IMG/VR virus record: IMGVR_UViG_3300033993_002093
Coordinates: 1 to 25,354 of that record
From: a virus
Length of the DNA stretch: 25,354 bases
Strand: one strand, 5' to 3'
A model generated the notes under the pieces. The model did no database searches. It saw nothing but the letters and a program-made list of their open reading frames with translations, and was not told the DNA's origin. The position numbers and the translations under genes were made by a program. This document shows, in pieces, positions 6,622 through 22,735 of the stretch. Within the stretch, counting starts at the first letter, position 1; every line of letters begins with the position of its first letter.

Positions 6622-8498
6622 CTCGGAAACGCAGCGCGCCCACTTCACCGGAACTCATCCCCCCGAAGGGGGATGGCGTTCCCCTGGGTAGCCTTCTGCT
6701 GGAAGAACGACCGGACGCCTGGAATCAGGTGCAGTTCGAGTCGAATGGGCGTATCCATCTGATCCCGCTCGTCGAGGAACTGTTCATCCTGACGAAAGAG
6801 CGCGGCATCGTCCGGTTGGGTGACGTGATGAATCACGCGCAGCGCGACTTCTTGGCGCGCTGCGAGAACCAACTGAACGACACGGGCCGCATCCGTGCGT
6901 GCGTGTTGAAGGCCCGCCAGATCGGTCTGTCGACGATCATCGAGGCGATCATCTTCACAATGTCGATGATGTGGGACAACTTGAACAGTCTGGTTGTTGC
7001 TCACGAGAAGGATGCGTCGGAAGCGTTGCTCGGCATGACTCGCCGCTACTGGGAGTCGTATCTGTGGCGCAAGATGCACGACGAGAAGTATGCGGGGCGA
7101 ACCCAGTTGTCGTGGTCGGACACCGGTTCGAACGTGCAGGTGGCGACAGCGAAGAACGTGCAGGCTGGCCGGTCGCGTACGATCCACTGTCTCCACGCGT
7201 CCGAGGTGGCGTTCTACGACGACCCGGAGACGTTGATGACGGGACTTCGCCAGTCGATCCCGACGAACGGCCTCAGCGCAGTGTTCTACGAGTCGACAGC
7301 GAACGGTGTCGGCAACTTCTTTCACCGGCAGTGCGTGTCGGCGATGAAAGGCCAGTCGGAGTACGAGTTCTTCTTCTACCCGTGGCATGAGCATCCGGAG
7401 TACACGGCGCAGTCGATGCCGTCGAGGGAGCAGGGGAAGTATGCGCGGCTCGGCGATCTCGATGAGGAAGAACTGGCGTTGCGGAAGTTGGGTATCCCTG
7501 ACGAACGGCTGATCTGGCGCAGGTACGCGATCGAGAACCTGTGTCAGCGCGACGTGGACAAGTTTCATCAGGAGTACCCGACGACACCGCACGAGGCGTT
7601 CGTGTCGACGGGTCGCAACGTGTTCCCGTTGAACGATCTGCTCACCCACTACGCGCCGAAGCGGGGCATCCGCGGCTACCTCCGCAGGTCGGGCGGGCAG
7701 GTGCAGTTCGTCGAGTCGAAGACGGGCTGGCTGACGGTGTACTCGAAGCCTTCACGCGACATGTCGTGGGGTGTGTATCTGGTCGGCGGCGATGCGACAC
7801 ACACGGTTGCTGGTGACAACGCGGTCGGCCAGGTCATCAACCGGCGCACCAAGGAACAGGTTGCGGTGTACACCCGCAAGGTCGACCCGGTGCAGTTCGG
7901 CAAAGACTTGCAGTTGCTCGGCACGTGGTACCACATGGCTCTGATTGCGCCAGAACGTGAAGGGCCGGGGTATGCGACGGTCGGCTGCATCGCGGCCGAC
8001 AACTACCCGAACCTGTACCAAGGGACAAATGTGGTGTCGGCTCGCGGCCATGTGACCGATGCGCTCGGCTGGTCGACGAACTCGGTGACGAAACATCTCG
8101 CCGTCCAACATCTGCGTCGCCTCGTGACCGAACCGATCATCGCTATGGGTGGCGCGCAGTACGGGTTGGTGATCCACCATGAACAGACGCTCGCTGAGAT
8201 GCGTGATTTCGTGACCGACCAGAAAGGCACCGGTTACGAGAACTCGGGCGAATCAGCGCACGACGATCATGTGATGGCGTTGGCGATCGCGGTGGCTGTC
8301 GACGCGATCGAGCCAACTCCGCCACCGTACGAGTCGACTGACCCGTCCAGCAGCGTCCAACGGCCGATCGCTCGTGTGGTGGAACGCGACGGGCGCACGT
8401 TGGCCGAACACCCACACACCGTTGCCCTTGACCCCGACACCGGGGGAGTGGGGCCGATTGTCCCCTGGGAAGCCTGGGGCGAAATGGAGGATCAGTGA
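6618..8498 (+). CDS. terL: Terminase large subunit
   Basis: This 626-aa protein is the packaging motor ATPase and nuclease. The Walker A-like motif is KARQIGLST (residues 98-106). The Walker B region is HCLHASEVAFYDD (190-202), with Ser-Glu at the catalytic pair. A coupling-type segment VFYESTANG is at 222-230. The RNase H-like nuclease has VGGDATHTVAGDNAVG (389-404) and a late acidic motif ESAHDDHVMALA (545-556). The GTG start overlaps the previous stop. Residues 6-25 are encoded by one copy of the 60-bp hairpin element (6634-6693) and are probably not part of the ancestral ATPase. It lies directly upstream of the zinc-ribbon and portal genes. Overall length is somewhat above many TerL proteins, partly because of a Pro-rich C-terminal tail. 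Confidence 0.92.
   Translation: MTRKRSAPTSPELIPPKGDGVPLGSLLLEERPDAWNQVQFESNGRIHLIPLVEELFILTKERGIVRLGDVMNHAQRDFLARCENQLNDTGRIRACVLKARQIGLSTIIEAIIFTMSMMWDNLNSLVVAHEKDASEALLGMTRRYWESYLWRKMHDEKYAGRTQLSWSDTGSNVQVATAKNVQAGRSRTIHCLHASEVAFYDDPETLMTGLRQSIPTNGLSAVFYESTANGVGNFFHRQCVSAMKGQSEYEFFFYPWHEHPEYTAQSMPSREQGKYARLGDLDEEELALRKLGIPDERLIWRRYAIENLCQRDVDKFHQEYPTTPHEAFVSTGRNVFPLNDLLTHYAPKRGIRGYLRRSGGQVQFVESKTGWLTVYSKPSRDMSWGVYLVGGDATHTVAGDNAVGQVINRRTKEQVAVYTRKVDPVQFGKDLQLLGTWYHMALIAPEREGPGYATVGCIAADNYPNLYQGTNVVSARGHVTDALGWSTNSVTKHLAVQHLRRLVTEPIIAMGGAQYGLVIHHEQTLAEMRDFVTDQKGTGYENSGESAHDDHVMALAIAVAVDAIEPTPPPYESTDPSSSVQRPIARVVERDGRTLAEHPHTVALDPDTGGVGPIVPWEAWGEMEDQ
6634..6693 (+). repeat. 60-bp hairpin element, copy R1, inside terL
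   Basis: This 60-nt sequence is identical to 22676-22735 and near-identical to 10774-10831. It folds as CATCCCCC-CGAA-GGGGGATG with an outer GGAAC/GTTCC pairing. Here it begins 12 nt after the stop of the 101-aa gene and is translated in frame as exactly 20 codons of terminase. Confidence 0.9.
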
Positions 8499-8869
8499 TC
8501 TACGAGTACAAGTGCCGCATGTGCGGACAGATCGAATCGACGACACGTCATCGCGGCGACCGGATGGGGGACTGCACGAACCCGGACTGTTCGGGTTCGC
8601 TGACCCGTCTGTTCTCGGTGTCGGTGCAGCGACCGCTGCATGAGCATTGGAACCCGACCGTGAACGCGGTGGTGTCGTCGAACGCCCAGTTCGACGACAT
8701 GCTGAAACGCAAGTCGGACGAGGCGACAGAGAACACCGGCATCGAACACCGGTTCGTGCGGCACGATCCGGCTGACACGCAGGCGTTGAAGGTGACAAGC
8801 GAAGGGATCGAGGAATCGAACAAGGTTCGTCGTGCCCAAGGGATGAGGGAACTCCCCACACCAGTGTAG
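8495..8869 (+). CDS. Zinc-ribbon FmdB-like protein
   Basis: The 124-aa protein starts (M)IYEYKCRMCGQIE. Cysteines form CxxC (residues 7-10) and a second cluster CTNPDCSG (about 27-34), giving a four-cysteine zinc ribbon like the FmdB/CxxC_CxxC_SSSS family. The aromatic YEYKC opening and the LTRLFS segment after the second pair also fit. The rest (about residues 45-124) is unlike FmdB and ends in a charged helical tail. Its role is unknown, though such ribbons are often found between phage packaging genes. The GTG start overlaps the terminase stop. The stop codon TAG is also part of a TAGAAT hexamer. Confidence 0.75.
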   Translation: MIYEYKCRMCGQIESTTRHRGDRMGDCTNPDCSGSLTRLFSVSVQRPLHEHWNPTVNAVVSSNAQFDDMLKRKSDEATENTGIEHRFVRHDPADTQALKVTSEGIEESNKVRRAQGMRELPTPV

Positions 8870-8902
8870 AATGGGGGTGAGGCAGCAGGGGTGTTACCTC
8901 CC

Positions 8903-8952
8903 GCCGCGACCCGCCCGAGTGCCCTTTCCGGTTGGCATGGGCGGGTCGTGGC
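8903..8952 (+). terminator. Hairpin upstream of the portal gene
   Basis: GCCGCGACCCGCCC (8903-8916) pairs with GGGCGGGTCGTGGC (8939-8952), with one G-U pair. TGCC and GGCA within the loop could pair as well. ATTTCTGG follows, a weak U-tract. It most likely ends the packaging transcript just before the next promoter. Confidence 0.65.
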
Positions 8953-8960
8953 ATTTCTGG

Positions 8961-8966
8961 TACCCT
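8961..8966 (+). promoter_or_regulatory. Candidate -10 box, leaderless portal mRNA
   Basis: TACCCT fits TANNNT and ends 7 nt before the ATG at 8974, placing the transcript start at or next to the start codon. No ribosome site precedes the ATG. I find no good -35 box at 17-18 nt. An alternative TAGAAT at 8867-8872 could start a transcript around 8879. Confidence 0.5.
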
Positions 8967-8973
8967 GTGTGGA

Positions 8974-10770
8974 ATGAGTCTGGATGAGTCGATTTCGGTG
9001 GTTGCCCCCGACAACCGCCCGACCACGGCCGCTGCTGACCATGAAGTCGAGACAGTGCAGATGGTGCGCGACCTGTTCTACAAGGCCCGTGATGCTCGTC
9101 GCCCGCTGGTGCAGCGATGGAAGAAGTGGTATCGCGTCCTGAACAACCGGACATGGACTCCTGGCGCGTCGTGGGAGCCGACGACGGAGATTCCGCAGAT
9201 GTGGCCGATCATCGCGTCGATGGTGGCGTGGATGACCGATCAGCGTCCGATCCTGTCGACGCTTGCGGGCGGGACGGCGTTCAGTCCGCACAACGACTTC
9301 TACGACGCCATTTCGAAGGACATGAACGCGGTGCTCGAAGCAGCGTTCATCGAGCACCAAGAAGACGCCGAAGTGACTCGCGGGTTGTGGGATGTGGCGA
9401 CGTACGGGATCGGCTGGCAGAAGACGATATGGGACGCCACGTTGGCGGACGGGTTGGGTGACACCACGTTCCGCAGGTGTGATCCGTTCACGATCTACCC
9501 GGATCAGTTCGCCCGTTCGCCGAAAGACATGAACAACATCACCGAAGCGAAGATCATGACGCTTTCGGATGTGGACCGCGCCTGGCCTGGCGCAGCGAAA
9601 CGGTTGGGCTACAACCATTTCCTCGAAGATGTCGACGAGTCGCCGCACATCTTGGATGAAACAGTCAGCATGACTGCGCCGCGTGCAGCGATGGCTCCCC
9701 CGGCCGCGGGCGGGTCGAACGCCTACCAGTACACGCGGCGTGGCAACGGTGCTGACGTGCAGAACCGTGAGGAGCCGGTGGTGACCGTCCTCGAATGCTG
9801 GGTGAAGTCGCATTCGGTGAAAGCGACCGACGATCCGAACGTGTTGCAGGTGACCGACGTGTGGACGTGTTACGTGGTGTGCGGCAACATCCTTCTGTTC
9901 GAAGGCACCGCGCAGGACGTGTCCGGGCACCGGATGCACCCGTATGACCGGATGGTGCTGTTCGATCAGGGCGAGATGTACGGGCCGTCGCTCGTCGATT
10001 TCATGACCAGCCCGCAGGAGTCGATCAACCGGATCGTGTCGATGATCGAACGCAACGCGATGTTGCACGGCAACCCGATCATGGCGGAGTCGCCACGGTC
10101 GCTGTCACGTGGGCAACGCAAGTCGAACCGGCCTGGCACGATCATCAAAGCGAACCCGTCCGAGGTCGGCTGGATTCAGCCGCCACAGATGCACCCGCAG
10201 ATGTCGGTGTCGCTGCTCGGCTACTTCGAGTCGAAGTTGGAGTCGATCTCTGGCATGTCGGCGATCGTGCGAGGGTTCTCGCCGTCTGGCCGCAACGCGC
10301 AAGGTGTGCTCGATTCGGTGCAGGACGCAGCGTTCGTCCGTATCCGTGCGACGTTGCGAGAGTTGGAACGCACGTTGCGTGGGATCACAACGAAGAAGGC
10401 TGCGAACATCGCCGAGTTCTACACGGAACCACGGTTCATGGCGATCATCGGCCCGGACGGTCAGAAGACGCGACGTGCGTTGCGGTCGAGGCATTTCTAT
10501 GCGCCGCCCGGTGAGGAAGGAACACGTGTGCCGTTGCGGTTCACGGTGCTCGCCGACGCCGGTTCCCAGTTGCCCACTTCGAAGCAGGCTCGTTCGGCGG
10601 AGGCTGACACCCTGTACGCGCTCGGCGCGATTGACGTGCTCGAACTGTTGAAGGCGAAGCAGTGGCCGAACTACGCGGTGGTAGCGAAGCGAGTCATGGA
10701 AGCGCAGGCTGCGAACGGTCAGTCCGGTGGTGTTGCCGCTCCTGGCAAACGTGAACGCGCTCGGGCCTGA
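8974..10770 (+). CDS. Portal protein
   Basis: This 598-aa protein fits a portal (head-tail connector) by its position after the terminase, its size and its sequence pattern. It has an N-terminal helical region with WKKWYRVLNN and a central segment MYGPSLVDFMTSPQESINRI (about residues 335-354), typical of portal wing/stem regions. A later segment NAQGVLDSVQDAAFVRIR begins near residue 441. The large size without separate middle components matches podovirus-type connectors. I chose ATG 8974 over the upstream frame start at 8932 because the -10 box ends 7 nt before it. It forms a dodecameric ring at one capsid vertex in known phages. Hairpin copy R2 begins 3 nt after its stop. Confidence 0.88.
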   Translation: MSLDESISVVAPDNRPTTAAADHEVETVQMVRDLFYKARDARRPLVQRWKKWYRVLNNRTWTPGASWEPTTEIPQMWPIIASMVAWMTDQRPILSTLAGGTAFSPHNDFYDAISKDMNAVLEAAFIEHQEDAEVTRGLWDVATYGIGWQKTIWDATLADGLGDTTFRRCDPFTIYPDQFARSPKDMNNITEAKIMTLSDVDRAWPGAAKRLGYNHFLEDVDESPHILDETVSMTAPRAAMAPPAAGGSNAYQYTRRGNGADVQNREEPVVTVLECWVKSHSVKATDDPNVLQVTDVWTCYVVCGNILLFEGTAQDVSGHRMHPYDRMVLFDQGEMYGPSLVDFMTSPQESINRIVSMIERNAMLHGNPIMAESPRSLSRGQRKSNRPGTIIKANPSEVGWIQPPQMHPQMSVSLLGYFESKLESISGMSAIVRGFSPSGRNAQGVLDSVQDAAFVRIRATLRELERTLRGITTKKAANIAEFYTEPRFMAIIGPDGQKTRRALRSRHFYAPPGEEGTRVPLRFTVLADAGSQLPTSKQARSAEADTLYALGAIDVLELLKAKQWPNYAVVAKRVMEAQAANGQSGGVAAPGKRERARA

Positions 10771-10773
10771 TCG

Positions 10774-10831
10774 GCGCGCCCAACTCCACCGGAACCCATC
10801 CCCCCCGAAGGGGGGATGGCGTTCCCCTGGG
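10774..10831 (+). repeat. Hairpin element, copy R2
   Basis: This is a diverged copy of the 60-bp element. The inner stem is CCATCCCCCC-CGAA-GGGGGGATGG (10796-10805 with 10810-10819), two pairs longer than in R1 and R3. One extra C and one extra G are matched across the stem, and T-to-C adds another pair, so the changes preserve structure. It starts 3 nt after the portal stop and may act as a terminator or 3'-end stabiliser, although no U-tract follows. Confidence 0.85.
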
Positions 10832-10848
10832 TGTCAGCAACTCTACAT

Positions 10849-10866
10849 GCCACACAGGAGTGTGGC
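10849..10866. promoter_or_regulatory. Inverted repeat overlapping a promoter
   Basis: GCCACAC-AGGA-GTGTGGC is a perfect 7-bp inverted repeat just upstream of the -10 box at 10874, covering where a -35 box would lie. It could be an operator for a dimeric regulator or a hairpin. No recognisable -35 sequence is present. Confidence 0.5.
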
Positions 10867-10873
10867 AAGTGTG

Positions 10874-10879
10874 TAGACT
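10874..10879 (+). promoter_or_regulatory. -10 box, leaderless transcript
   Basis: TAGACT, within the context TGTGTAGACT, ends 6 nt before the ATG at 10886, so transcription is predicted to start on the A of the ATG. The same TGTGTAGA(A/C)T context and spacing occur at 22763. Confidence 0.6.
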
Positions 10880-10885
10880 GTGTTT

Positions 10886-11077
10886 ATGGCATACGACATC
10901 TCGATCACTCCTCAGGGTCAGGAAAGCAAGTCGGCCTTTCAGCGGCCGACGTGCGAGGCGACTGATCCGCGGGGCGGGTTCCAGTTCAACCCCGAGTTCC
11001 GTATCTACGGGGCGATCGACAACGGCACTTGGTCGTCGACCAAGGGCAATCTCAGCGATCCATTCACGAAACCCTGA
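10886..11077 (+). CDS. Hypothetical protein, 63 aa
   Basis: This 63-aa protein begins MAYDISITPQGQESKSAFQR and contains a Gly/Phe/Pro-rich middle (RGGFQFNPEFRIYGAIDNG). I do not recognise it. I place the start at 10886 because this ATG matches the predicted transcription start; the ATG at 10880 in the same frame would lie inside the promoter. It is the first gene of the head-assembly unit between portal and scaffold. Confidence 0.65.
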   Translation: MAYDISITPQGQESKSAFQRPTCEATDPRGGFQFNPEFRIYGAIDNGTWSSTKGNLSDPFTKP

Positions 11078-11087
11078 GGAGGGCATC

Positions 11088-11234
11088 ATGGACAAGGGCA
11101 TCAAGTCGAAGACCGGCAACGTCGGTATCAAGAAGAACGGCCACACGTTCTCGGGCATGCACGGCAACAACCCGAACGCGAAGCGTCGCGGCTACCCGAA
11201 CGAGCCGACGACGATCACTTTCGGCAAGGGCTGA
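11088..11234 (+). CDS. Small basic protein, 48 aa
   Basis: The 48-aa protein is basic and glycine-rich: it begins MDKGIKSKTGNVGIKKNGH and includes NPNAKRRGYPN. ATG 11088 has a strong GAGGAGG-type ribosome site 5-6 nt upstream, which argues that it is real. I do not recognise it. Basic small proteins between portal and scaffold may bind DNA or capsid inner surface, but this is inference. It ends 3 nt before the next ATG. Confidence 0.65.
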   Translation: MDKGIKSKTGNVGIKKNGHTFSGMHGNNPNAKRRGYPNEPTTITFGKG

Positions 11235-11237
11235 CCG

Positions 11238-11525
11238 ATGGCGGCGCGCAGCACAAACACGATGGCGGAGTTGCTTCAGCGGCTCCTGTCGGACCTCGCC
11301 CAAGCGAAAGTCTTGCAGGACGCTGATCTGCCGTTCATCGTGGAGTTGGAGACGATGATCGTCTCCAAGTTGCGCGACCCGCAGACCAAGATGCAGGAAG
11401 CAGGGTTGCTCCCCTCTGCTCCCGCACAGCAGATGTTCCCCGGTCAGGGGGCACCTGTTGGTGGCGGCGTGATGCAGGGCATGGGGACGCCCCCGGTCGA
11501 CGAACTTCGTCGGCTGATGATGTGA
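11238..11525 (+). CDS. Hypothetical protein, 95 aa
   Basis: The 95-aa protein has a helical N-terminal half (MAELLQRLLSDLAQAKVLQD and DLPFIVELETMIVSKLRD). Its second half is Pro/Gly/Met-rich and ends in VDELRRLMM. I do not recognise it. Its place between portal and scaffold makes a minor head or assembly role plausible, but the sequence does not show one. Confidence 0.65.
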   Translation: MAARSTNTMAELLQRLLSDLAQAKVLQDADLPFIVELETMIVSKLRDPQTKMQEAGLLPSAPAQQMFPGQGAPVGGGVMQGMGTPPVDELRRLMM

Positions 11526-11535
11526 AAGGTTCCCT

Positions 11536-12543
11536 ATGACCACATTCGACGAATCCACCGAAACCGAGTTTCCTGGCGGCGAAGCACCCGACTTCGAAGC
11601 GTTGCTGTCCGCCGAGTTCGCGAAGCGGCTCGGCCTCAGTGTCAACGAAGACGAGGACGACGACTTCGAAGACGATCGTCCCGCGCCGACCCCTGAACCG
11701 GTTGGCGATCCCGACGAGGAATACGACCCGACCGAAGACCCGTCGCCCACATCTGACCCTGCGCCTGCTCCGGCGCGTCTCACGGTGCCGATTCCTGGCA
11801 CCGATCAGTCATATGACGTGGATGTGGACACGGCGCAGAAGTTGCTGGGTTTGGCCGCATGGGCGGAAGGCTTGCAGCCTCAGACCCGTGAAGCATTCGC
11901 GGCGATCGAGACGGGCGCAGCGGTGCCGGTCACGCGCGCCGACTACGAACGTTTCCTCGCGTGGAGCCAGATGCAGGAACGCGAAGACGCGGGACGTTTC
12001 GGCGACGACGATGAGGACGCAACTGCACGCGAGGTGGCTGAACTGCGGGCCGAAGTGGCTCGTATGCGTCAGCAGCCGATCGTCGATCAGTACACGCAGA
12101 CCGCCGACCGGGCAACCAACATCTTCATTCAGACTGCCGAATCGTACGCCGAGTCGCGTGGGCTGTCCGAGGAACAGATGGGCGAAGTGTTCCAGTACGC
12201 CATCAACGCTGGCGTGATCGGTTCGATCGCTGACTCGATGCGGCAGTACAGCCCGACTGGTCAACTGGTCCGCGACGCCGACTATGGCGAGGTGGCGCGT
12301 CGCTCGTTCGATTTCGCTCTCGTCAACCATCCTCAGTTTCGTGATCGCGCTTTGGCCGGTCCTCCTTCTGGCGCATCCGCACCAGACCCGACAGCAATCA
12401 AGAAGGCCCGTGCAGGGTCTTTGGCCTCCGCTCCTTCGGCCGCTGTCAGCACACCATCCATCGACGTACGCCAGATGTCGGATTTCGACAGGCGTGCGGC
12501 GATGGCCGACGAACTCCGTGCCGCGATGAGCGGGCGGGCGTAA
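11536..12543 (+). CDS. Scaffolding protein
   Basis: This 335-aa protein is the probable capsid scaffold by position, immediately before the major capsid gene, and by composition. The N-terminal third (residues 36-80) is a highly acidic, Pro-rich disordered region. A coiled-coil segment follows at about 161-180 (DATAREVAELRAEVARMRQQ). The C-terminus, with DFDRRAAMADELRAAMSGRA, is a charged helix of the type that binds capsid protein in known scaffolds. It would be absent from mature virions. An AAAGG ribosome site lies 6 nt before the ATG. Confidence 0.75.
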   Translation: MTTFDESTETEFPGGEAPDFEALLSAEFAKRLGLSVNEDEDDDFEDDRPAPTPEPVGDPDEEYDPTEDPSPTSDPAPAPARLTVPIPGTDQSYDVDVDTAQKLLGLAAWAEGLQPQTREAFAAIETGAAVPVTRADYERFLAWSQMQEREDAGRFGDDDEDATAREVAELRAEVARMRQQPIVDQYTQTADRATNIFIQTAESYAESRGLSEEQMGEVFQYAINAGVIGSIADSMRQYSPTGQLVRDADYGEVARRSFDFALVNHPQFRDRALAGPPSGASAPDPTAIKKARAGSLASAPSAAVSTPSIDVRQMSDFDRRAAMADELRAAMSGRA

Positions 12544-12566
12544 CCCACTAGGAGAAGGAGCCACCT

Positions 12567-13556
12567 ATGGCAGTCCTCATCGGTACCGACACGGTGACTT
12601 CGATCGCCAACCGGTACGTCGTCCCGACCATCACCGACCAGATCTACCCGGCGAACGTCTTCCTGTATCGCGTCCATCGCGCGAACAAGAAGATGGTGCA
12701 GGGCGGCACACAGATCGAAGTGCCGTCGATGTACCGTCGTTTCGCTGCTGGCGGTGCCTACCGCGGCTTCGAGCCGCTCGACACCACGCCCAGCGACACG
12801 ATCCGTAACGGCGCGCTGGACTGGAAGCAGTACTACGTGCCGTGGTCGCTGTCGGGTCTGACCCTCATCCAGACCGATTCGCCCGAAGCGATCGCGAACT
12901 TCCTGACCCTTCAGAGCCAGCAGGCGTTCATGGAGATGGCCGAAATCCTCGCTTTCGGTCTGTTCCAGAACGGTGTCAGCAACGTGAAGGAACTCGACGG
13001 TTTCGCTGGCGCGATCGGCAACTCGTCGGTCGGCAACACCTCCTACGCGGGCATCACCCGTTCGGCGAACTCGTGGTGGAACTCGTCGGTGGACGCCACC
13101 ACGGCGACCTTGACGCTCGCTTCGCTGCACGCGCTCATCATGAACGCCAGCCGCGGCGGTCAGCACCCGACGATCCTCCTGACCCGTCAGGAGCAGTACA
13201 ACCGTGCTTGGGCACTCGGCACCGCATCGACCGGCTACACGGTCCAGCAGCAGCGTGCCCCCGGTGGTCACGACGAACTGCTGCTGTCGGCAGGCTTCAC
13301 CAACATCCTCGTCGACAACATTCCGCTGGTCGTCGACCCGCACGTGGACAACGGCCCGAACGCCAACAACGGTCGCATCTACGCGATCAACGAGAACACG
13401 TTCCACCTGTGCGTGTCGCCTCGCGCCGACTTCTACGTGGAGCCGTTCCAGAAGCCGGTCAACCAGGACGCGATGGTGTCCATGATCCTGTGGGCAGGCA
13501 ACTTGGTTTGCACCGCCCCGAACCTCAACGCCGTCATGACCAACGTGTCGGCCTGA
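12567..13556 (+). CDS. Major capsid protein
   Basis: This 329-aa protein follows the scaffold gene and has a strong AGGAGAAGGAG ribosome site, consistent with high expression. The sequence fits HK97-fold capsid proteins: an N-terminal NRYVVPTITDQIYPANVF, a strand-rich VPSMYRRFAAGGAYRGF, then a long helical stretch with LTLQSQQAFMEMAEILAFGLF (about residues 112-132). A late segment, DFYVEPFQKPVNQDAMVSMI, precedes a short C-terminus. No prohead protease is visible nearby, so N-terminal cleavage is not expected. It forms the shell around the genome. Confidence 0.85.
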   Translation: MAVLIGTDTVTSIANRYVVPTITDQIYPANVFLYRVHRANKKMVQGGTQIEVPSMYRRFAAGGAYRGFEPLDTTPSDTIRNGALDWKQYYVPWSLSGLTLIQTDSPEAIANFLTLQSQQAFMEMAEILAFGLFQNGVSNVKELDGFAGAIGNSSVGNTSYAGITRSANSWWNSSVDATTATLTLASLHALIMNASRGGQHPTILLTRQEQYNRAWALGTASTGYTVQQQRAPGGHDELLLSAGFTNILVDNIPLVVDPHVDNGPNANNGRIYAINENTFHLCVSPRADFYVEPFQKPVNQDAMVSMILWAGNLVCTAPNLNAVMTNVSA

Positions 13557-13571
13557 TCCAAGGGAGCACCA

Positions 13572-14054
13572 ATGGCAACCCCCAATATCCAGAACCCGTT
13601 CGGCGCTCACCGCCAGGTGACCACCTTCGCTTCAGGCGTCGACGTGCTTGGCGAACCGTTCCATGCTCCTGCGGTCACGCAGGAGTATCGAGCCAACGCA
13701 GCCATCACGCTCGGCCAGGTCGTCGAGTTCGTGTACGGCACCGCCACCGTGCCGCTGTCGGTGCAGCCGATGGCGACCGCGAGTAGCCAGATGCGTTTCG
13801 CTGGTGTCGCACTCAACGCTGCCGCAGCCGGTGAAGTGGTGCAGGTCTGTACCCACGGCCATTGCCTCGTGAACGTCGGTGCGACCGCAACCGCGATCGA
13901 CTCGTATCTGCTGAAGCCTGCCACCACGGCCGGTGTCGGCACGGTGGCGAGCACCGCGGTCGACGCAACCACGGTCACCGGCACGATTCTCGGCACGTTC
14001 GTCGGTGCCAACGACGGCACCACCTTCAGTCCGGTGTTCCTCCACCGTCAGTGA
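13572..14054 (+). CDS. Probable capsid decoration protein
   Basis: The 160-aa product is rich in Ala, Thr, Val and Gly with short beta-strand patterns (AVTQEYRANAAITLGQVVEF, GEVVQVCTHGHCLVNVGATA) and few charged residues. This resembles DUF2190-like and lambda gpD-type capsid-stabilising proteins. Its position right after the capsid gene supports that. It has a good GGGAG ribosome site. It could alternatively be a head-fibre base. A hairpin terminator follows. Confidence 0.6.
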   Translation: MATPNIQNPFGAHRQVTTFASGVDVLGEPFHAPAVTQEYRANAAITLGQVVEFVYGTATVPLSVQPMATASSQMRFAGVALNAAAAGEVVQVCTHGHCLVNVGATATAIDSYLLKPATTAGVGTVASTAVDATTVTGTILGTFVGANDGTTFSPVFLHRQ

Positions 14055-14070
14055 TCCCCCCGACAGGGAA

Positions 14071-14106
14071 CGGGGGACGGGGCATGCGTCCAGGCTCCGT
14101 CCCCCG
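14071..14106 (+). terminator. Terminator hairpin after the decoration gene
   Basis: CGGGGGACGG (14071-14080) pairs with CCGTCCCCCG (14097-14106) around a 16-nt loop, followed by a weak T-rich CCTTGTTGTC. A competing CCCCC at 14056-14060 could pair with the same G run. It may attenuate rather than fully stop transcription, favouring capsid over downstream genes. Confidence 0.6.
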
Positions 14107-14144
14107 GCCTTGTTGTCACCATCCCTCAACTCAGGAGATACCTC

Positions 14145-14852: not shown

Positions 14853-15115
14853 CCTTGGTGGAGCGTCGCGCCCGTGTCGCTCAGGAACTTGCGGACACGC
14901 TCCGCAGCCTGGGCGACACCCGCGCGGCGCGCCGCACCCAATGGGGGGTCGCGTTCGATCATGCCCGCATGACGGGCGACAACATCACGACGGTACGCCA
15001 GGTCGCTGACCGTGCAGTGATCCATCTCGAAAGCGAGATCGAACGGTTGCAAGGCGAAGTTGAAGCCATGCGTGTCGAACTCGGCCAGATCGACTTCGAG
15101 GCAGACCATGACTGA
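14849..15115 (+). CDS. Hypothetical helical protein, 88 aa
   Basis: The 88-aa product, with a GTG start overlapping the previous stop (GTGA), is almost entirely helical. It has an Arg-rich N-terminus (ERRARVAQELADTLRSLG) and a C-terminal coiled coil (IHLESEIERLQGEVEAMRVE, about residues 58-77). I do not recognise it. A small coiled-coil protein here could be an assembly chaperone for the fibre gene it overlaps by 8 nt. That is inference from position only. Confidence 0.65.
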   Translation: MTLVERRARVAQELADTLRSLGDTRAARRTQWGVAFDHARMTGDNITTVRQVADRAVIHLESEIERLQGEVEAMRVELGQIDFEADHD

Positions 15116-17477
15116 CATCCACAACCAACAGACGATCGAACCGTTCGTCAAGTCGCCGTACATCGGTTCGATCGGTGTCGATGTCATCAACAATGGTGGC
15201 GGTGGTGGTGGCGGTGGGGCCGCGGGGTCGCAGATTCTCTACGGCACAGGTGAACCGCAAGGCGCGACTGGCGTCCAGGGCGACACCTACATTCGCACCA
15301 CCAACGGGTTCGTCTACACGAAGACGAACGCTGTCACATGGACGTACCAGTTGACGATCGTCGGGCCGACTGGTGCGAACGGCCCGGCTGGCCCCGCTGG
15401 CGAACCCGGTACCCCTGGCCCTGTCGGTCAGCCAGGAGCCGGTGTGCCCACCGGTGGTGCCGCCGGGCAGATTCTCGCCAAGACGAGCGGCAGCAACTAC
15501 GACACCCAATGGGTCGACGCCCCGACCGGTGGTGGTGGAGCGGTGTCTGGCGACTACGTGCCGTTGTCCGCGTTTCCGGTCACCATCGGTGTGCAGGTGT
15601 CGTCCCAATCGGCGGCTGTCACCCCGTCAACCACGGTTCCAGCGATTCGGATTCGCACCCCGTACGCGTTCAATCTCAACTCGATTCAAGGCTACGCGAC
15701 GGCGACCGACACGACAGCGGCGATCATCGACATCGAGACGACAATCAACGGGGTGTCGCAGTCGATCTTGGGTAACCGTGTCCAGATCGACGCGAACGAG
15801 TTCACGTCGCTCGAAGCGGCAGCGTTGCCCACCATCGTCGCGTCAGCGATTGCTGCCGATCAGGAACTCCGCATCTTCGTCGATCAGGCATCATCGGCGT
15901 GGCGTGGCCTTGCGTTGTGGCTGAACGGTACCCGCGCACTGACGCTCACTCCATCCGCACCCGGCGTGCCGACAATCTTCGAGGTGCGTGCAGGCATCCA
16001 GTCGGGTGCTCTCGGTCTGTGGTTCTTTGTCCCCTCGGCGAACAACTCTCCGATCACGTCGTACACGGTGCAGTACCGGACAACGGGAAGTCCGACGTGG
16101 TTGACGTGGAGTGGCGCGCTGTCCGATTCAACGATCCTGCCAAACTTTGCTCCGGCGAAGTACACGCTCATCACCGGTCTGACGAATGGGACGGAGTACG
16201 AGATTCGCGTATCGGCCACGAACGGTGTCGGAACGTCGCTGTTCTCTCAGTCTTCGGGAACGCCTGCGGCCGGTACGGTTACTGCGCCAGCGGCACCGAC
16301 GATCAACACTGTCACGACTCCTTCGACCGGCAAGGGAACGCTCAGCGTCGCGTTCACCGCGGGGTCCGCAAACAACGGCACGATCTCCAACTACCAGTAT
16401 TCGTTCGACGGCACCAACTGGGTGAACCGGCAAACTGGAACCACAGCATCCCCTATCGTCATCACCGGTTTGGCGGATGCCACGGCGTACTCGGTGCGAA
16501 TCCGTGCCGTGAACGAAGCCGGTCCCGGCTCAACGTCGAACATTGTTGGCGGCACGACAGCATCCGTGCCTGCCGCGCCCGCAGCCCCAACCCCGACCGC
16601 GGGCAGCAGTCAGGTGTCGCTCACGTGGACTGCCCCCGCGAATGGCGGCTCGGCGATCCTCGACTACGTGATCCAGTTCTCGTCGAACGGCGGCACCTCG
16701 TGGACGACTTTCACCGAAGGGGTGGAAGCGGTCACATCGAGCAACGTCACCGGCCTGACCAACGGCACGTCCTACGTGTTCCGGGTTGCGGCAGTGAACG
16801 CTGTCGGCCAGGGTGTGTTCTCGGTTGCTTCGAGCGCAGTTACTCCTGCTGCTGGTGGTGGCGGAGCAGGTTCGTTCTCGAAGAACCCGACGAACGCAAA
16901 CAGCGGCTTCATGCTTTCGCAAGCAATCGACAGCGATTCGGCGGCAGCATATTCGGCAGCACGAGGCGGCACCGGCAGCCTCTCCGTGACCAGCCTTGTT
17001 GACTCAGCCATTGGCTCGGTCGGACAAGATCGTTCGTACAACAGTCTGGACGAAGAATACACACAGACCGTTTATCAAGCATTCTTGGAGTTCGACACAT
17101 CTGGCGGAGGAACTGTCAGTGGTGGTGTCGCGCTGAAGATATTCCTCAATAGCGATTTCTCGACCACCGACTTCACGATTGAGGCGTACGCCCGTGATTA
17201 CGGTTCGACGCTCACGACTGGCGACTGGATGAACGGCACCACCGTGGAGGGGCTGACCCCATTGGCGGCGTCGATCAGCACGAGCGGCATTGGCGCAACC
17301 GGATCACTGAAGACGTTGACATTGAGTGGCAACGTGCTGCGTGACGCGATCAACCCGTCCGGGGTGACAAGAATCGTGCTGGTGTCTTCCCGCAACCGCG
17401 GCAACAACCTTCCTTCAGGCGGCGAGTCCGTTCAACTGGATTTCCGCAACACTGTGCTCGAATACACGAAGGTGTGA
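15108..17477 (+). CDS. Collagen-like/FN3 fibre protein
   Basis: This 789-aa protein is a probable virion fibre or adhesin. Residues 30-37 are a run of eight Gly. A collagen-like Gly-X-Y block spans about 86-112 (GPTGANGPAGPAGEPGTPGP). GGAAGQILAKTSGSNYDTQW (117-136) is a motif common in phage tail fibres. A beta-rich domain follows to about 280, then three fibronectin type III domains (about 283-383, 389-486, 487-583). The last 200 residues form an unassigned Gly/Ser/Thr-rich, probably jelly-roll domain that may contact the host. ATG 15108 is chosen over 15060 because it overlaps the previous stop normally and 15060 lies deep in that gene. Collagen-like and FN3 parts often attach phages to surface glycans. 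Confidence 0.8.
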   Translation: MTDIHNQQTIEPFVKSPYIGSIGVDVINNGGGGGGGGAAGSQILYGTGEPQGATGVQGDTYIRTTNGFVYTKTNAVTWTYQLTIVGPTGANGPAGPAGEPGTPGPVGQPGAGVPTGGAAGQILAKTSGSNYDTQWVDAPTGGGGAVSGDYVPLSAFPVTIGVQVSSQSAAVTPSTTVPAIRIRTPYAFNLNSIQGYATATDTTAAIIDIETTINGVSQSILGNRVQIDANEFTSLEAAALPTIVASAIAADQELRIFVDQASSAWRGLALWLNGTRALTLTPSAPGVPTIFEVRAGIQSGALGLWFFVPSANNSPITSYTVQYRTTGSPTWLTWSGALSDSTILPNFAPAKYTLITGLTNGTEYEIRVSATNGVGTSLFSQSSGTPAAGTVTAPAAPTINTVTTPSTGKGTLSVAFTAGSANNGTISNYQYSFDGTNWVNRQTGTTASPIVITGLADATAYSVRIRAVNEAGPGSTSNIVGGTTASVPAAPAAPTPTAGSSQVSLTWTAPANGGSAILDYVIQFSSNGGTSWTTFTEGVEAVTSSNVTGLTNGTSYVFRVAAVNAVGQGVFSVASSAVTPAAGGGGAGSFSKNPTNANSGFMLSQAIDSDSAAAYSAARGGTGSLSVTSLVDSAIGSVGQDRSYNSLDEEYTQTVYQAFLEFDTSGGGTVSGGVALKIFLNSDFSTTDFTIEAYARDYGSTLTTGDWMNGTTVEGLTPLAASISTSGIGATGSLKTLTLSGNVLRDAINPSGVTRIVLVSSRNRGNNLPSGGESVQLDFRNTVLEYTKV

Positions 17478-17480
17478 TCC

Positions 17481-19370
17481 ATGCCTGTCGTGAGAGCGCC
17501 CCTCAACTACGACAACGCGGGCGGTCCCTACTATGGGGTTACCATGCTGTTGCCGAACGGCAAGGTGCTGACGTGGGGAAATGGAACCGCGTGGGTTCTA
17601 TCCCCTGACGCATACGGCTCGTACGTGACCGGTTCGTGGCGGCGCGTGCAAGACATGCCGTTCACTCAACAAGCGGGGCCAGCACTCGTGCTGAACAACG
17701 GCAAACTGCTGGTCACCTGCGGCGAGTACGGGACTTCGTATTTCTCGAACACGCAACTGTTTGATCCCGAAACTGAACGATGGACTGCGTATCCGAACAC
17801 GCCTGTGGCGCGTCACGCGTTCGGGTTGATGTTCGATGACGGAAGCGTGTACGGCAATGTCAGTGGTCCGCGATACATTCCCGCAAACAGCCTGCCCACA
17901 CAAACAGCCTCGTATCAGGTGTTGGCGAATCTTCTTCTTGCAAACGACCTTCTCTTTGAAGGTGGTCAGTTGGTAGAAGGTGTTGCGGCTCTGACTCCGG
18001 GCGGTTTCTTTGTAACCGCAGAAACGAATCTCAATAAGCCCAACACAGTGAGTCACGCCTTGGGTTCTGTCGCGAAAGAGAATGCGACGCTCTTGCGATA
18101 CGAAAGACGCAGTGCGCTCACTCGACTTGGCGAACTTCCGAACTGGTGGCGTTTGCCGCCCAACAACCTGAAGGCTCGTTGGACAAGCATTGGTGTGGAA
18201 GATCAGCAGCCAAGTCAACTGGCTGCTGGAGCGGCGAGCGTCTGGTACGAACCTGGGGCGATGTGTTTCATGCCGAAGATCGGCAAGGTAGTGCTGGTGG
18301 ATGGGGTCGGCAGCATCTTGACGATCACACCGAACCTTTCTCCCGATCTGATGCTTCCCACGTTGACGCGTGCTGCAACGATGCCGCTCGATCCGCCAAG
18401 TGCAGCGAACACGTTCACGACGGCCTACAACTTTGGCGTCGTTGATAGCAGTGATCGCGGCAAGACCGCTCCACAGATTGCGTCCCAAGGGACGCTGACC
18501 GTTTCCACCGGTTTGTATACCGGTGTTGACTCGCTTGTTCAACTGTGGAACATCAAGCCAAACAAGAACTTCTACGTTCGATGCGCGAGCAACACGAAGT
18601 TCATGCGCTTCAGTTACGACACTGCCACGGCGGTAGGCACAAACACGTTCCGCTTCAACAACGTCACGACCCGCACGTATTCGGGCGCATCGTGGGACGG
18701 AACTGTTACTGAAACAGGTGGAGAGGTCACGTTTTACCGTCCCATCTTGACCAACATGGATCAAGGCGTCGCGATCCTTCCGAACGGCAACCTGTTGATT
18801 GCGGCAGGAACCGGAGATGGGGGTTTCAACACGCGAGGGTGGGTTGCCACGTGGGATGGAGTGCAGCCGGTCGCTCAGATAGTTGGTGAGAGCGAATCTG
18901 GTGCCTTTCAACTGCTTCCCCTTCCTGACGGGACAGTGCTGCATGGCGGTGTCTATATCTACGTCCCCACCACCGCTGAGCGAACTCCAAGCCCGAGCGC
19001 GATTCCAACGATCACGTCCGCGCCGTCAGCGATTGCTGCCGGGGGGCGGTTCACGCTGGCAGGGACGCAACTGACCGGCATCCATCAGGGCGGCTACTTC
19101 TCTGAGGATTACACGCCGCACACGAACATCCCAATCGTTCGTCTCACCGGCAGCGATCAGCGCGTGTGGTTCTGTTCGACGCGTGACTACTCGTACCGCG
19201 GCATCGAGCCGGGCCGCGCTTCGACCTGCAACGTCACGGTTCCTTTCGACGTTCCCGCAGGGACGTACGGGATGGAGGTCGTTGTGAACGGCTGTCCTTC
19301 CGCTTCTCGGCCCATCACCATCACCCCTCAGGCGCATGGTGAGGCAACGTTCATCAACTTCATCCCGTAG
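17481..19370 (+). CDS. Galactose-oxidase-like beta-propeller protein
   Basis: The 629-aa protein has kelch-like blades (LLPNGKVLTWGNG, about residues 23-35; VLNNGKLLVTCGEYGTSYFS; ILPNGNLLIAAGTGDGG, about 433-449). It ends with a domain like the C-terminal DUF1929 domain of galactose/glyoxal oxidases (IPIVRLTGSDQRVWFC and FDVPAGTYGMEVVVNGCPS). In galactose oxidase the THTVNTDQR segment supplies a copper-binding His; here the matching stretch is just TGSDQR and that His is missing. I infer a binding rather than catalytic role, probably as a receptor-binding appendage. No secretion signal is present. GC content drops: two sampled 60-nt lines (18001, 18541) are 47-48% GC against 58-68% in neighbouring genes, suggesting recent acquisition. 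It starts 3 nt after the fibre gene. Confidence 0.7.
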   Translation: MPVVRAPLNYDNAGGPYYGVTMLLPNGKVLTWGNGTAWVLSPDAYGSYVTGSWRRVQDMPFTQQAGPALVLNNGKLLVTCGEYGTSYFSNTQLFDPETERWTAYPNTPVARHAFGLMFDDGSVYGNVSGPRYIPANSLPTQTASYQVLANLLLANDLLFEGGQLVEGVAALTPGGFFVTAETNLNKPNTVSHALGSVAKENATLLRYERRSALTRLGELPNWWRLPPNNLKARWTSIGVEDQQPSQLAAGAASVWYEPGAMCFMPKIGKVVLVDGVGSILTITPNLSPDLMLPTLTRAATMPLDPPSAANTFTTAYNFGVVDSSDRGKTAPQIASQGTLTVSTGLYTGVDSLVQLWNIKPNKNFYVRCASNTKFMRFSYDTATAVGTNTFRFNNVTTRTYSGASWDGTVTETGGEVTFYRPILTNMDQGVAILPNGNLLIAAGTGDGGFNTRGWVATWDGVQPVAQIVGESESGAFQLLPLPDGTVLHGGVYIYVPTTAERTPSPSAIPTITSAPSAIAAGGRFTLAGTQLTGIHQGGYFSEDYTPHTNIPIVRLTGSDQRVWFCSTRDYSYRGIEPGRASTCNVTVPFDVPAGTYGMEVVVNGCPSASRPITITPQAHGEATFINFIP

Positions 19371-19378
19371 GAGCAGAC

Positions 19379-19615
19379 ATGAGTTCAGCGATGCCTCCGA
19401 CCCTGGTGGTCAGCCGTGAAGAATGGGACGCGATCCGTCGCGATGTGAGCACGTTGTTCGACTGCCACCGGACGATTCGCAATCTTGCCAAGTTCGTGTT
19501 CGAACCGGATCAGATCACTGATTCTGATCGGGTGATGGCGGGGCTTCATCTTCAGCACTTCTTCAAGCAGTACCCGATGAGTGCAGACACGCCCACACAC
19601 GGCCCAGTAACCTGA
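19379..19615 (+). CDS. Hypothetical protein, 78 aa
   Basis: The 78-aa product has a helical N-terminal half (SREEWDAIRRDVSTLFDCHR) and a middle HLQHFFKQYP, with no recognised family. It starts 8 nt after the propeller gene behind a GGAG ribosome site and ends 4 nt before the next GTG, so it is within the tail operon. It may be a small assembly or chaperone protein for the propeller, but only adjacency suggests it. Confidence 0.6.
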   Translation: MSSAMPPTLVVSREEWDAIRRDVSTLFDCHRTIRNLAKFVFEPDQITDSDRVMAGLHLQHFFKQYPMSADTPTHGPVT

Positions 19616-19619
19616 TGCG

Positions 19620-21500
19620 GTGAGCACCAACCACGTCACGGGGCGCATTACGATCGCTGACTTCCGCGCAGGCATCCATTCGGACTTCCATGCCGGAACG
19701 GCGACGATCGCTACATCGGGCATGGCAGTGAACGGCGCGGCCGTCGTCGAGGACACGTGGGGATGTTGCGCTGATCCGTCGGGTGCGCTGGTGCCTCTGC
19801 CGCGAGTGACGACCGGCAAGACTTCGGCTCTCATTCCGCCGAATGCCAGCCTGCATGGCACCGGTCTGCCCGACACGTATCTGCTCGACGCGATCGTTGT
19901 CGACGAAGTGCAGCAGACCAACCAACCGTTGTCGGCGAATCCTGAGGTTGTCACCATGCAGGCGTTCGTGTATTCGCCTGCCGGGTTCTGGGATCAGTAC
20001 ATGCTGGTGCGCCGCTGGCACGAGTTCAAGGCGTCACCCGATACGAGCGATGTGTCGTTCGTGAAGTCGGGTGCCAGCCAGAGCGCGAACGAACTGCTGT
20101 CAGGCAACCTGTGCCACACGCGCGGCTACGAATCGCCGTCGTACTCGGCGACCGAGGATGGCGCGATCTCGTCGCTTCGCAAAGGGTTCGCGTGGGTGGC
20201 GCACGCATTGGAGATTGCCGGGTCGTTGGACGGTTCGGCAAGCCAGTTCATTCAGGGCGCGATGACTGCGGGCGATCAGGCGATCAGCGACTACTACTCG
20301 AAGTATTCGCAGGCGCAGTTCAGTGGCAACTACCCGACCCGTGTGCGTGACGCGGTGGTTGGCTACTTCCCGAACTTCGCGTCGCCGCCAGGCACTTTCA
20401 TGAACACCCCTGGTCATTACGACGGCACCGCGATCGGAAACCGCCAGTATCAAGGCGCGTTCATGTGTACCGGCCATCAGGGCCGTGTCGTGGTGGCGCA
20501 ACGCATCCCGTCGCAGTACGAGAACCGGTCGAGTGGCTTGTATGCGTGGAAGGACCGTCTGACCGCCAGCGCGCCGTTGCAGCCACAGGTGTTCGGTGGT
20601 GGCGGCGAGTTCGTCGAGGAAGTCACATCGGGCATCGGGACGATGGCGTCGCTGTCTGCCGATGAACTGCTCGTCGTGAAGCACAGCGGTGGCGGCTACC
20701 TGTTGCGCGGGTCGGTGACGAACCCGACCGTGACCAAGTTGCCGTTCATCGAGTCGACATACGGTGTGGTGTCATCCCCGGTGGCGACACCGATGGGCCT
20801 CGTGTACGGCTCGCGCAACGGCGTGTTCGTGTGGGACGGCGGGCAGACTTCGCGCCATATCAGCCCCCAGTTGGACGGCTTCTTCTGGCGGCACACAGCA
20901 ACCAAGTATCAGGGGCACAGCGCACGGTTCGGCTGGTGGCATCCGTGGGTGATGGCCCCGAACGGGTTCATGTTCGACACACGCAACCAGGGCTGGTGGC
21001 GTCTCGACAACCCGAGCGGCCATGAGGCGTACAACGTGTATGCCGTGTCGAACCGTGACCGGCTGTACGCGTTTCCGTGGCGGCTCGGCGCGGCAGCGCC
21101 CGCGAACGTGATGTGGAACCAGGCCGATTCGGATGTGCTCGCGTCGCAGTGGTCGTGGAAGTCGCAGCCGTTGTACGAAACGCGCGACACGTCATTCAAG
21201 GTGCGTGACGTGACGATCTTGGCGACCGCGGCTGATCTTGGGTCGACGGTCACTGTCACGATCGCTGGGATCGACGAAACAGGTTCGGTTGTGTCTTTGA
21301 CACCTGTGACGTTCACGCTTGGCGAGAACTTGGATCAGCCGCAGCAACTCACGAAAGATGTCCTGTCGACAGGTACGGGCGCGTTGGCGTACGTGCAGGT
21401 GAAAGTTACGGCGAACAACACGAACTCGTTGGCAGCCCCGAAGGTGCATTCGGTGTCGCTTGGCGTGATCGACACGGTGCCGTTGCGAAAGGCTGCATGA
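19620..21500 (+). CDS. Probable tail nozzle / structural protein
   Basis: This 626-aa protein looks like the beta-propeller nozzle of short-tailed phages (functional equivalent of T7 gp12). Repeated blade-like strands include VYGSRNGVFVWDGGQTSRHI (about residues 396-415), WVMAPNGFMFDTRNQGWWRL and VSNRDRLYAFPWRL. A strand-rich C-terminal domain follows. The match is by pattern and by its closeness to an adaptor gene, not by exact motif. The start is GTG 19620, since the nearby ATG at 19614 stops at once. It overlaps the next gene by 4 nt (ATGA). An alternative is a general tail-associated propeller. Confidence 0.5.
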   Translation: MSTNHVTGRITIADFRAGIHSDFHAGTATIATSGMAVNGAAVVEDTWGCCADPSGALVPLPRVTTGKTSALIPPNASLHGTGLPDTYLLDAIVVDEVQQTNQPLSANPEVVTMQAFVYSPAGFWDQYMLVRRWHEFKASPDTSDVSFVKSGASQSANELLSGNLCHTRGYESPSYSATEDGAISSLRKGFAWVAHALEIAGSLDGSASQFIQGAMTAGDQAISDYYSKYSQAQFSGNYPTRVRDAVVGYFPNFASPPGTFMNTPGHYDGTAIGNRQYQGAFMCTGHQGRVVVAQRIPSQYENRSSGLYAWKDRLTASAPLQPQVFGGGGEFVEEVTSGIGTMASLSADELLVVKHSGGGYLLRGSVTNPTVTKLPFIESTYGVVSSPVATPMGLVYGSRNGVFVWDGGQTSRHISPQLDGFFWRHTATKYQGHSARFGWWHPWVMAPNGFMFDTRNQGWWRLDNPSGHEAYNVYAVSNRDRLYAFPWRLGAAAPANVMWNQADSDVLASQWSWKSQPLYETRDTSFKVRDVTILATAADLGSTVTVTIAGIDETGSVVSLTPVTFTLGENLDQPQQLTKDVLSTGTGALAYVQVKVTANNTNSLAAPKVHSVSLGVIDTVPLRKAA

Positions 21501-21991
21501 TGTCCGGCGTGTCGCGCCGTGCCCGCCTGAACGTGTCGGCGACCGAGACGCGGTTGGGGCGTGTCGTTGAGGAAGTGAACAAACTGCCGTTCGCGTTCGT
21601 TGGTTTCGGAGCGACCCGCTCGACGACGTTCAGTGCCGCAACTGTGAGCACGTGGGAAGCGGTGGCGTTCGTTCCGGGCCTCGACTTCGACTCGATGCTG
21701 AACAGTCGGGAGTCGGCTACGGGGGCGACGGTGAGTGACGGCGCGGACGGGGTGTATCTGCTGTCGGTGCGTGGCGGCATGGCGTCGAACGCAGGTTCGT
21801 TCCGGTTCACGGTGAACGGCACCGCTGTGTTCACTGTGAACCTGTCGACGACCGAACTGTCTCACTGGTCGACTCCGGTCGCGTTGCGTTCTGGTGATGT
21901 GATCCGGTTCGAGTTCCAGACCACGAACGTCGCCTGGTTGCTGAACACTGGCTGCTCGGTGACGGCTGTTCGCGTAGGATTGCTCCCATAG
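21497..21991 (+). CDS. Small jelly-roll-like structural protein, 164 aa
   Basis: The 164-aa product has a basic N-terminus (MMSGVSRRARLNVSATETRL) and a beta-rich body (GVYLLSVRGGMASNAGSFRF, FTVNLSTTELSHWSTPVALR, GDVIRFEFQTTNVAWLL). This strand pattern is reminiscent of C1q/TNF-like jelly rolls found in phage appendages. I cannot assign it to a family. The start overlaps the nozzle stop, and the next gene begins after an AGGAGG site 10 nt on. A tail or head appendage role is inferred. Confidence 0.6.
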   Translation: MMSGVSRRARLNVSATETRLGRVVEEVNKLPFAFVGFGATRSTTFSAATVSTWEAVAFVPGLDFDSMLNSRESATGATVSDGADGVYLLSVRGGMASNAGSFRFTVNGTAVFTVNLSTTELSHWSTPVALRSGDVIRFEFQTTNVAWLLNTGCSVTAVRVGLLP

Positions 21992-22001
21992 GAGGCTGGA
22001 C

Positions 22002-22670
22002 ATGACCACAGGAACGCAGATGATCGCGCGGGTCCGTTCCCGCCTCGATGAGACAACGGCACGGTTCTGGTCGGATGCTGAACTGTTGACCTGGCTGAAC
22101 GAGGCGTTGCGTGACGCTGGTCGTTACACGAAACACATCCGTGACCGCAAGACGATCGCGGTGACGGCGAACGTGGGTGAGTACACGGTGCCCGAAGATG
22201 TCATCGAGATCGAACACGTGTACTTCTTGCCTGGTGATGGTCGGCAGATTCCGATGACCAGCCAGTCGTACGACAACATGGATCAGGTGTGGGGGTCGTG
22301 GCAGAACCTTCAAGTGGGGGAACCGGCCGCGTTCGCGTTGTGGGGAACGCCGCCATCGTTGAAGATGAAGGTGTACCCGACCCCGGTGTCCACAGGGACG
22401 CTCAGCATGTTGGTGGTACGAATGCCTGCCGAGTTGACCACCGCCGCCAGTGTCGTCGACTTTCCCCCAGCCTGGGATGACGTGTTGGAGGACTACATTG
22501 AAATGGCTGCGCTCCGCAAGGCACGCGACCCTCGATGGCAGGAAGCGTTCCAGATGTACACGCAGAAGCGCGACATGCTCGACGTGAACGCCGACTACGG
22601 CAACGACCCCGAGACATTCGTGTTCGACGGCTACGCAGGCATCTTGCCGCGCTGGCTCGTCCAAGGCTGA
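22002..22670 (+). CDS. Head-tail adaptor protein
   Basis: This 222-aa protein fits the phage adaptor type (T7 gp11 / P22 gp4-like) that joins portal to nozzle. The N-terminal helical pattern FWSDAELLTWLNEALRDAGR (residues 22-41) is characteristic. It is followed by a strand domain (IAVTANVGEYTVPEDVIEIE) and a C-terminal helical region with WDDVLEDYIEMAALRKARDP. ATG 22002 has a strong AGGAGG site 7 nt upstream. Its presence next to the propeller gene, and the lack of a tail tube or tape measure, supports a podovirus-like tail. It ends 5 nt before hairpin copy R3. Confidence 0.7.
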   Translation: MTTGTQMIARVRSRLDETTARFWSDAELLTWLNEALRDAGRYTKHIRDRKTIAVTANVGEYTVPEDVIEIEHVYFLPGDGRQIPMTSQSYDNMDQVWGSWQNLQVGEPAAFALWGTPPSLKMKVYPTPVSTGTLSMLVVRMPAELTTAASVVDFPPAWDDVLEDYIEMAALRKARDPRWQEAFQMYTQKRDMLDVNADYGNDPETFVFDGYAGILPRWLVQG

Positions 22671-22675
22671 CCGCG

Positions 22676-22735
22676 GCGCGCCCACTTCACCGGAACTCAT
22701 CCCCCCGAAGGGGGATGGCGTTCCCCTGGGTAGCC
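22676..22735 (+). repeat. 60-bp hairpin element, copy R3
   Basis: Identical over 60 nt to R1 (6634-6693), with stem CATCCCCC-CGAA-GGGGGATG at 22698-22717 and outer GGAAC/GTTCC. It begins 5 nt after the adaptor stop and lies 27 nt before a TAGAAT -10 box, the same layout as R2. Confidence 0.9.

Follow-up and report, generated by a model that had tools for sequence, protein, structure and literature searches.

A hairpin of about 64 nt, present as three copies (R1, R2 and R3) in the window, by which we mean the whole linear virus record of 25,354 bases analyzed here, is best read, with a probability of roughly 0.6, as a terminator-like 3'-end hairpin that would serve as operon punctuation coupled to the next promoter and that appears to have been copied between sites. 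The genes of the window lie on one strand and are packed tightly, with few long intergenic gaps, the gaps making up about one twentieth of the sequence. By its portal and adaptor proteins the phage is P22/SU10-like rather than T4-type, and the leaderless starts described below, along with a G+C content of 62%, suggest an actinobacterial host. The features central to the argument, in order along the window, are:

6316..6621, + strand: gene upstream of the terminase, 101 aa; its stop codon overlaps the GTG start of the terminase (GTGA)
6618..8498, + strand: terminase large subunit, 626 aa (603 aa in the related contig L005)
6624..6695, + strand: in-frame 72-nt segment (terminase residues 3-26), absent from the related contigs L005, L006 and L089-L092; holds all of R1
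6630..6693, + strand: copy R1 (core from 6634), within the 5'-terminal part of the terminase gene and 12 nt past the TGA of the preceding gene
8974..10770, + strand: P22/SU10-like portal gene, upstream of R2
10770..10836, + strand: copy R2 (core from 10774), directly after the portal stop; site occupied also in L005 and L001
10848..10867, + strand: perfect 8-bp inverted repeat TGCCACAC-AGGA-GTGTGGCA, between R2 and its -10 box
10874..10879, + strand: putative leaderless-type -10 box TAGACT, 6 nt before the ATG at 10886
10886..11077, + strand: small gene after R2, its start served by the putative promoter after R2
22002..22670, + strand: SU10-type adaptor gene (Pfam PF24175, E 7.9e-25), upstream of R3
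22672..22735, + strand: copy R3 (core from 22676), directly after the stop of the adaptor gene; site occupied also in L005
22763..22768, + strand: putative leaderless-type -10 box TAGAAT, 6 nt before the ATG at 22775; conserved in L005 (L030:5738)
22775..23830, + strand: gene after R3, its start served by the putative promoter after R3

The early region of the window additionally codes for a DUF932 protein (216-1328; Pfam E 1.2e-32) and contains a weak, below cut-off match to a ParA/AAA_31-like ATPase (1763-2326), as well as a tRNA-like remnant with an intact T-arm and acceptor stem (1643-1718) that gives a weak tRNA-Sec match (33.3 bits, below gathering) and is recovered by ARAGORN in relaxed settings only.

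Over 60 nt, R1 (6634-6693) and R3 (22676-22735) do not differ, and when extended (6630-6693 and 22672-22735) they match at 63 of 64 positions; R2 is 87% identical to them by global alignment. The distance from the stop codon to the start of the copy is 12, 3 and 5 nt for R1, R2 and R3, respectively. The identity of R1 and R3, with correct coordinates and sequences, the divergence of R2 and the 3-12 nt spacing had all been given in the original prediction and are borne out here. The length of the match alone excludes a chance origin of the copies. Each copy is recovered by a covariance model with E ~1e-14, and all three fold better than dinucleotide shuffles on the + strand (z of -3.3, -3.8 and -2.7 for R1, R2 and R3), with R1 and R2 doing so on the - strand as well. 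An exact search and the RNA model found no fourth copy in the window, and an Rfam scan found no family at any of the three.

A hand alignment of six copies reveals a common layout, viz., GCGCGCCC, a variable 5' arm, CC, GGAAC, and a variable inner stem whose short loop contains GA, followed by GTTCC, CC, TGGGT, and finally either NGCC or GTC. All six share an invariant outer stem, GGAAC/GTTCC, and the inner stem changes as paired events: R2 has one added C-G pair, CAT/ATG in the window phage corresponds to CA/TG in L005 (one U-A pair present or missing, with both arms affected), and where R3 of L005 has a C-G pair, R2 of the same phage has G-C. The proportion of paired cells is 95.5% on the model-fitted alignment, as against 46-67% when the partners are slid, and five cells changed on both sides are observed, as against 2.1 in shuffles, figures that reflect few independent events and an alignment that leans towards the structure. 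The matched changes from which the original prediction had argued for selection on the fold, namely an extra C and an extra G within homopolymer runs and one U-G to C-G change in R2, are real but weak if taken by themselves; the better covariation lies in the paired changes between phages. Consistent with this, both differences between L001 and the window in R2 fall in the unpaired 5' arm. On the sequence evidence, then, the element is real, repeated and conserved in structure, its hairpin being retained through compensatory changes between phages.

The element was found in only three contigs (the window, L001 and L005), which are metagenomic assemblies and represent two independent lineages. 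L001 is 97.8% identical to the window and carries R1 and R2 at matching positions; its contig ends short of R3. L005 shares about 76% DNA identity with the window, is collinear with it across the aligned parts, and encodes terminase, portal and capsid proteins that are 84-90% identical to their counterparts. It has diverged copies past the portal gene (10753), past the adaptor gene (22668) and at the contig start (7-52), the last preceding a TTGACA-like promoter region and sitting at an assembly edge, but none in its terminase gene. As a side observation, this contig begins within the copy (1-58), which fits an assembly break at a repeat, and the window may have another copy immediately beyond its upstream end. 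The R2 site is empty in six outgroup contigs (L006 and L089-L093), where no hairpin follows the portal stop and the next coding region starts almost at once, whereas in the window, L001 and L005 the portal stop is followed by both the hairpin and a -10 box; the gained unit thus comprises hairpin, spacer and promoter. Given that the R2 and R3 sites are filled in L005, that no copy lies in its terminase gene, that the six outgroups are empty at the R2 site and that five of them, like L005, lack the terminase segment with R1, R2 and R3 are the older copies and R1 is a derived one.

Beyond these contigs, no copy was found in more distant relatives (terminase identity of 50-60%), and no similar repeated hairpins were found in L089 and L091-L094. 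The covariance-model search for further copies advocated in the original prediction, run over 35 loci, scored only the known copies above noise. Looser patterns matched 39 viral stretches, real only in L001 and L005 (those in L027 and L043 were inspected and judged to be chance), and a BLAST search with R3 against phages and plasmids returned no match. Across 84,980 cellular genomes there was no copy beyond 20 genome matches to GGAAC..GTTCCCCTGGGTNGCC; none of these has the inner hairpin, and a cellular origin was set aside with the matches judged to be chance.

In the window, TGTGTAGA(A/C)T comes after both intergenic copies, and 6 nt separate the -10 box from the start codon, as in a leaderless transcript; the promoter sequence after R3 is the same in L005. 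The leaderless promoters proposed earlier for the starts after R2 and R3 are therefore upheld as putative ones, with TAGACT and TAGAAT as their boxes. No sigma70-type match was detected on the + strand at R2 or R3 of the window, only the -10 box being recognizable. The inverted repeat between R2 and its -10 box is a possible operator; L001 departs from it at a single position, a spacer difference that comes in addition to the two in R2 and lies in the loop. Strong hairpins lie directly past the stop codons in essentially every long intergenic gap, and the gap before the portal gene of L005 also holds one. When 60-nt folds of the window are ranked by stability, eight of the top ten, R2 included, lie just past stop codons. 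R2 and R3 hence occupy a position held elsewhere by unrelated hairpins, including some that resemble ordinary terminators in having T-rich tails, and the use of unrelated hairpins in the other gaps implies that a shared sequence is unnecessary for termination. No U-tract follows any of the copies, and a scan for canonical terminators flags none of them.

A different repeat accompanies other promoter-like stretches: a 12-bp tandem repeat, GTTGTGCGTCCG, occurs at 50-100 and 2777-2835 of the window and at 63-98, 3091-3126 and 4600-4623 of L005. In the window it is flanked by an operon-end hairpin (2717-2761) on one side and a promoter-like stretch containing TTGACA (2872-2902) on the other, and it also precedes a similar stretch at 135-165; it looks like an early-promoter operator array.

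The copies within one genome resemble each other more closely than they do their positional equivalents: paralogues are 87-89% alike (100% over 60 nt for R1 and R3), as against 76-77% for same-site copies between the two phages, the latter divergence being about that of the whole genomes. This could reflect conversion among the copies; alternatively, each phage may have restocked these sites from a master copy of its own. In the window, the spacer and -10 box past R2 (GTGTC..AGCA, TGTGTAGA) are nearer to those after R3 of L005 than to those after R2 of L005, as if the whole cassette had moved between sites, a comparison that draws on short matches. Inspection of R1 revealed no target-site duplication, and a Pfam scan of 20 window proteins no transposase domain, so that recombination is likelier than transposition. 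Separately, the 5' boundary of R3 in L005 (L030 5634-5660) is partly duplicated (AGCGCGCCCC, then AGCGGCGCGCCCC), possibly a trace of copying or recombination.

The copy inside the terminase gene has a distinct history. The terminase starts of L005 and L090-L092 have M-T joined directly to L-L/M, and in the window and L001 a further 24 residues (RKRSAPTSPELIPPKGDGVPLGSL) separate these two motifs; the segment is absent also from L006 and L089. Its nucleotides (6624-6695) are R1 with 6 nt to the left and 2 nt to the right, so that R1 is translated if the GTGA-overlapping start is used. That overlap of the start with the preceding stop is common to the window and L005. A downstream terminase start past R1 was considered and rejected, since L005 likewise has a start that overlaps the preceding stop as GTGA, along with the M-T-L-L/M motif; the L090 terminase also begins at GTGACGCT, and those of L091 and L092 have the M-T-L-L/M motif from an ATG. 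R1 is thus a derived in-frame insertion, in keeping with the earlier suggestion of one: neither the repeat nor its residues occur in the aligned homologues, and the refuting condition set in the original prediction (homologues sharing the residues but lacking the repeat) was not borne out. The original prediction of exactly 20 in-frame codons was right as to length, but the core starts at the second base of a codon, and what the relatives lack is 24 residues rather than 20. The N-terminal stretch of the terminase before the conserved region varies among relatives, which makes 24 extra residues tolerable. There is no -10 box near R1, unlike R2 and R3. Nor was R1 retained as a candidate packaging (pac) site, L005 having no terminase copy.

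Taking the main reading forward, we propose that the transcript at R2 and R3 would fold into a GC-rich hairpin past the last stop codon, at which transcription would stop or a 3' end would form, and that a leaderless promoter 30-40 nt beyond the hairpin would then start the next unit. Recombination between copies would spread the combined hairpin and promoter cassette around the phage genome and would also keep the copies of one genome alike. R1 would be a later, hairpin-only copy that landed in frame between terminase codons 2 and 3 and came to be translated as the 24 extra N-terminal residues. Since a terminator across terminase codons 5 to 26 should be harmful, we infer translational coupling, with ribosomes coupled via the GTGA overlap keeping R1 from folding and stopping transcription; the R1 hairpin is probably neutralized in this way by translation inside the terminase gene.

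The strongest competitor, which we nonetheless consider unlikely, is a mobile palindrome of the MITE or REP kind that transposes by itself or through a host enzyme, its positions being merely tolerated sites and its fold serving transposition. The clean derived insertion of R1, the gain of R2 relative to the six outgroups, and the palindromic form and single length of the copies would all suit such an element. However, all copies have a single orientation relative to transcription, those in the window lie within 3-12 nt of a stop codon, and two phages have the R2 and R3 sites in common; no target-site duplication was seen at R1 and no transposase domain in the 20 window proteins scanned, and the searches found no full copy in the 84,980 cellular genomes and none in other phages or plasmids. 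Of the options offered in the original prediction, a mobile palindrome, a 3'-end RNA structure or both, we thus favor both, with the 3'-end role as the primary one, in view of the new copy at the terminase, the conserved fold and the promoters.

A 3'-end role could also be fulfilled differently, by a hairpin that acts as a barrier to exonucleases or as an RNase III cleavage site and so protects the portal and adaptor mRNAs. A very stable hairpin right past the stop codons with no U-tract, kept by compensatory changes, is what such a stabilizer or processing site would look like; yet this account leaves the promoter after each intergenic copy unexplained, and the other gaps hold hairpins resembling ordinary terminators with T-rich tails; we rate it slightly below the mobile palindrome. 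Very improbable, in our estimate, is a DNA-level site for protein binding, replication or packaging that is palindromic by coincidence: the flanks GCGCGCCC and GTTCCCCTGGGT are indeed more conserved than the hairpin center and one copy does lie within the terminase gene, but the center changes by paired substitutions, pointing to single-strand folding, the strict orientation and stop-codon position would go unexplained, and, with no copy in the terminase gene of L005, it is not a required packaging site.

Among known systems, the closest kind to the punctuation cassette favored here is the PeSL (promoter early stem-loop; Arbiol 2010, Comeau 2014) of T4-type phages, of which the element would be a PeSL-like variant in a P22/SU10-like phage. 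As described in two citing papers, PeSLs are promoter/terminator stem-loop cassettes thought to promote shuffling, and a similar idea has been proposed for the haloarchaeal virus HGTV-1 (PMC4503421, PMC3950731). By these accounts, the likeness lies in a composite of stem-loop and promoter between genes, repeated in one genome, and in the proposal that PeSLs spread and serve as homology for shuffling. Stem-loop and putative promoter share a gap at R2 and R3 of both the window and L005, and not at R1. In place of an early host-sigma70-like promoter, R2 and R3 of the window have only a -10 box, and the carrier has a P22/SU10-like portal and adaptor rather than being a T4-type myovirus. Compared to PeSLs as those papers present them, the copies here precede virion-region genes or ones of no recognized identity, with no recognizable early -35, and R1 is hairpin-only and coding.

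With a canonical intrinsic terminator the element shares the GC-rich hairpin, the U-tract being absent. Hairpins with no U-tract within 50 bp of stop codons have been described as the predominant mycobacterial intrinsic terminators, a view that is disputed (PMC12288462). The element resembles these I-shaped actinobacterial terminators in its GC-rich hairpin 3, 5 or 12 nt past the stop with no U-tract, but they are unrelated hairpins, whereas this is one repeated, homogenized sequence for which termination is predicted (PMC12288462). R1, and R1 only, recalls the Rickettsia palindromic elements in being a palindrome in frame within a protein gene, from which the element differs in size (64 nt as opposed to about 150) and in residing in a phage instead of a bacterial chromosome (PMC10969869). 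The recurrent insertion into many unrelated genes typical of those elements is not seen, one copy being coding and the others intergenic; with a single coding site, and no cellular genome or other phage family found to have the element, the parallel with a Rickettsia-type protein-coding palindrome family drawn in the original prediction is not supported. Like the element, the SAS/ESAS repeats known from cluster K mycobacteriophages are short repeated sequences with inverted repeats at gene boundaries in one phage group (PMC3203893), but SAS are 13-bp motifs at translation starts, whereas the element follows stop codons and has no such 13-bp motif (PMC3203893).

The fullest version of the proposal, which we advance tentatively and at rather less than even odds, is that of a self-spreading punctuation cassette outside the T4-type phages, homogenized within each genome by recombination, of which a stray hairpin has come to lie in the N-terminus of an essential packaging enzyme, where it is silenced by translation. 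If true, phages outside the T4 group would build and rearrange their transcription units by copying a ready-made stop/start cassette, and the terminase would offer a bracketed case (L001 and the window with the segment, L005 lacking it) of a hairpin entering a coding gene and leaving it unbroken. How new operon boundaries arise, and how proteins acquire new segments, would thereby become open to direct test.
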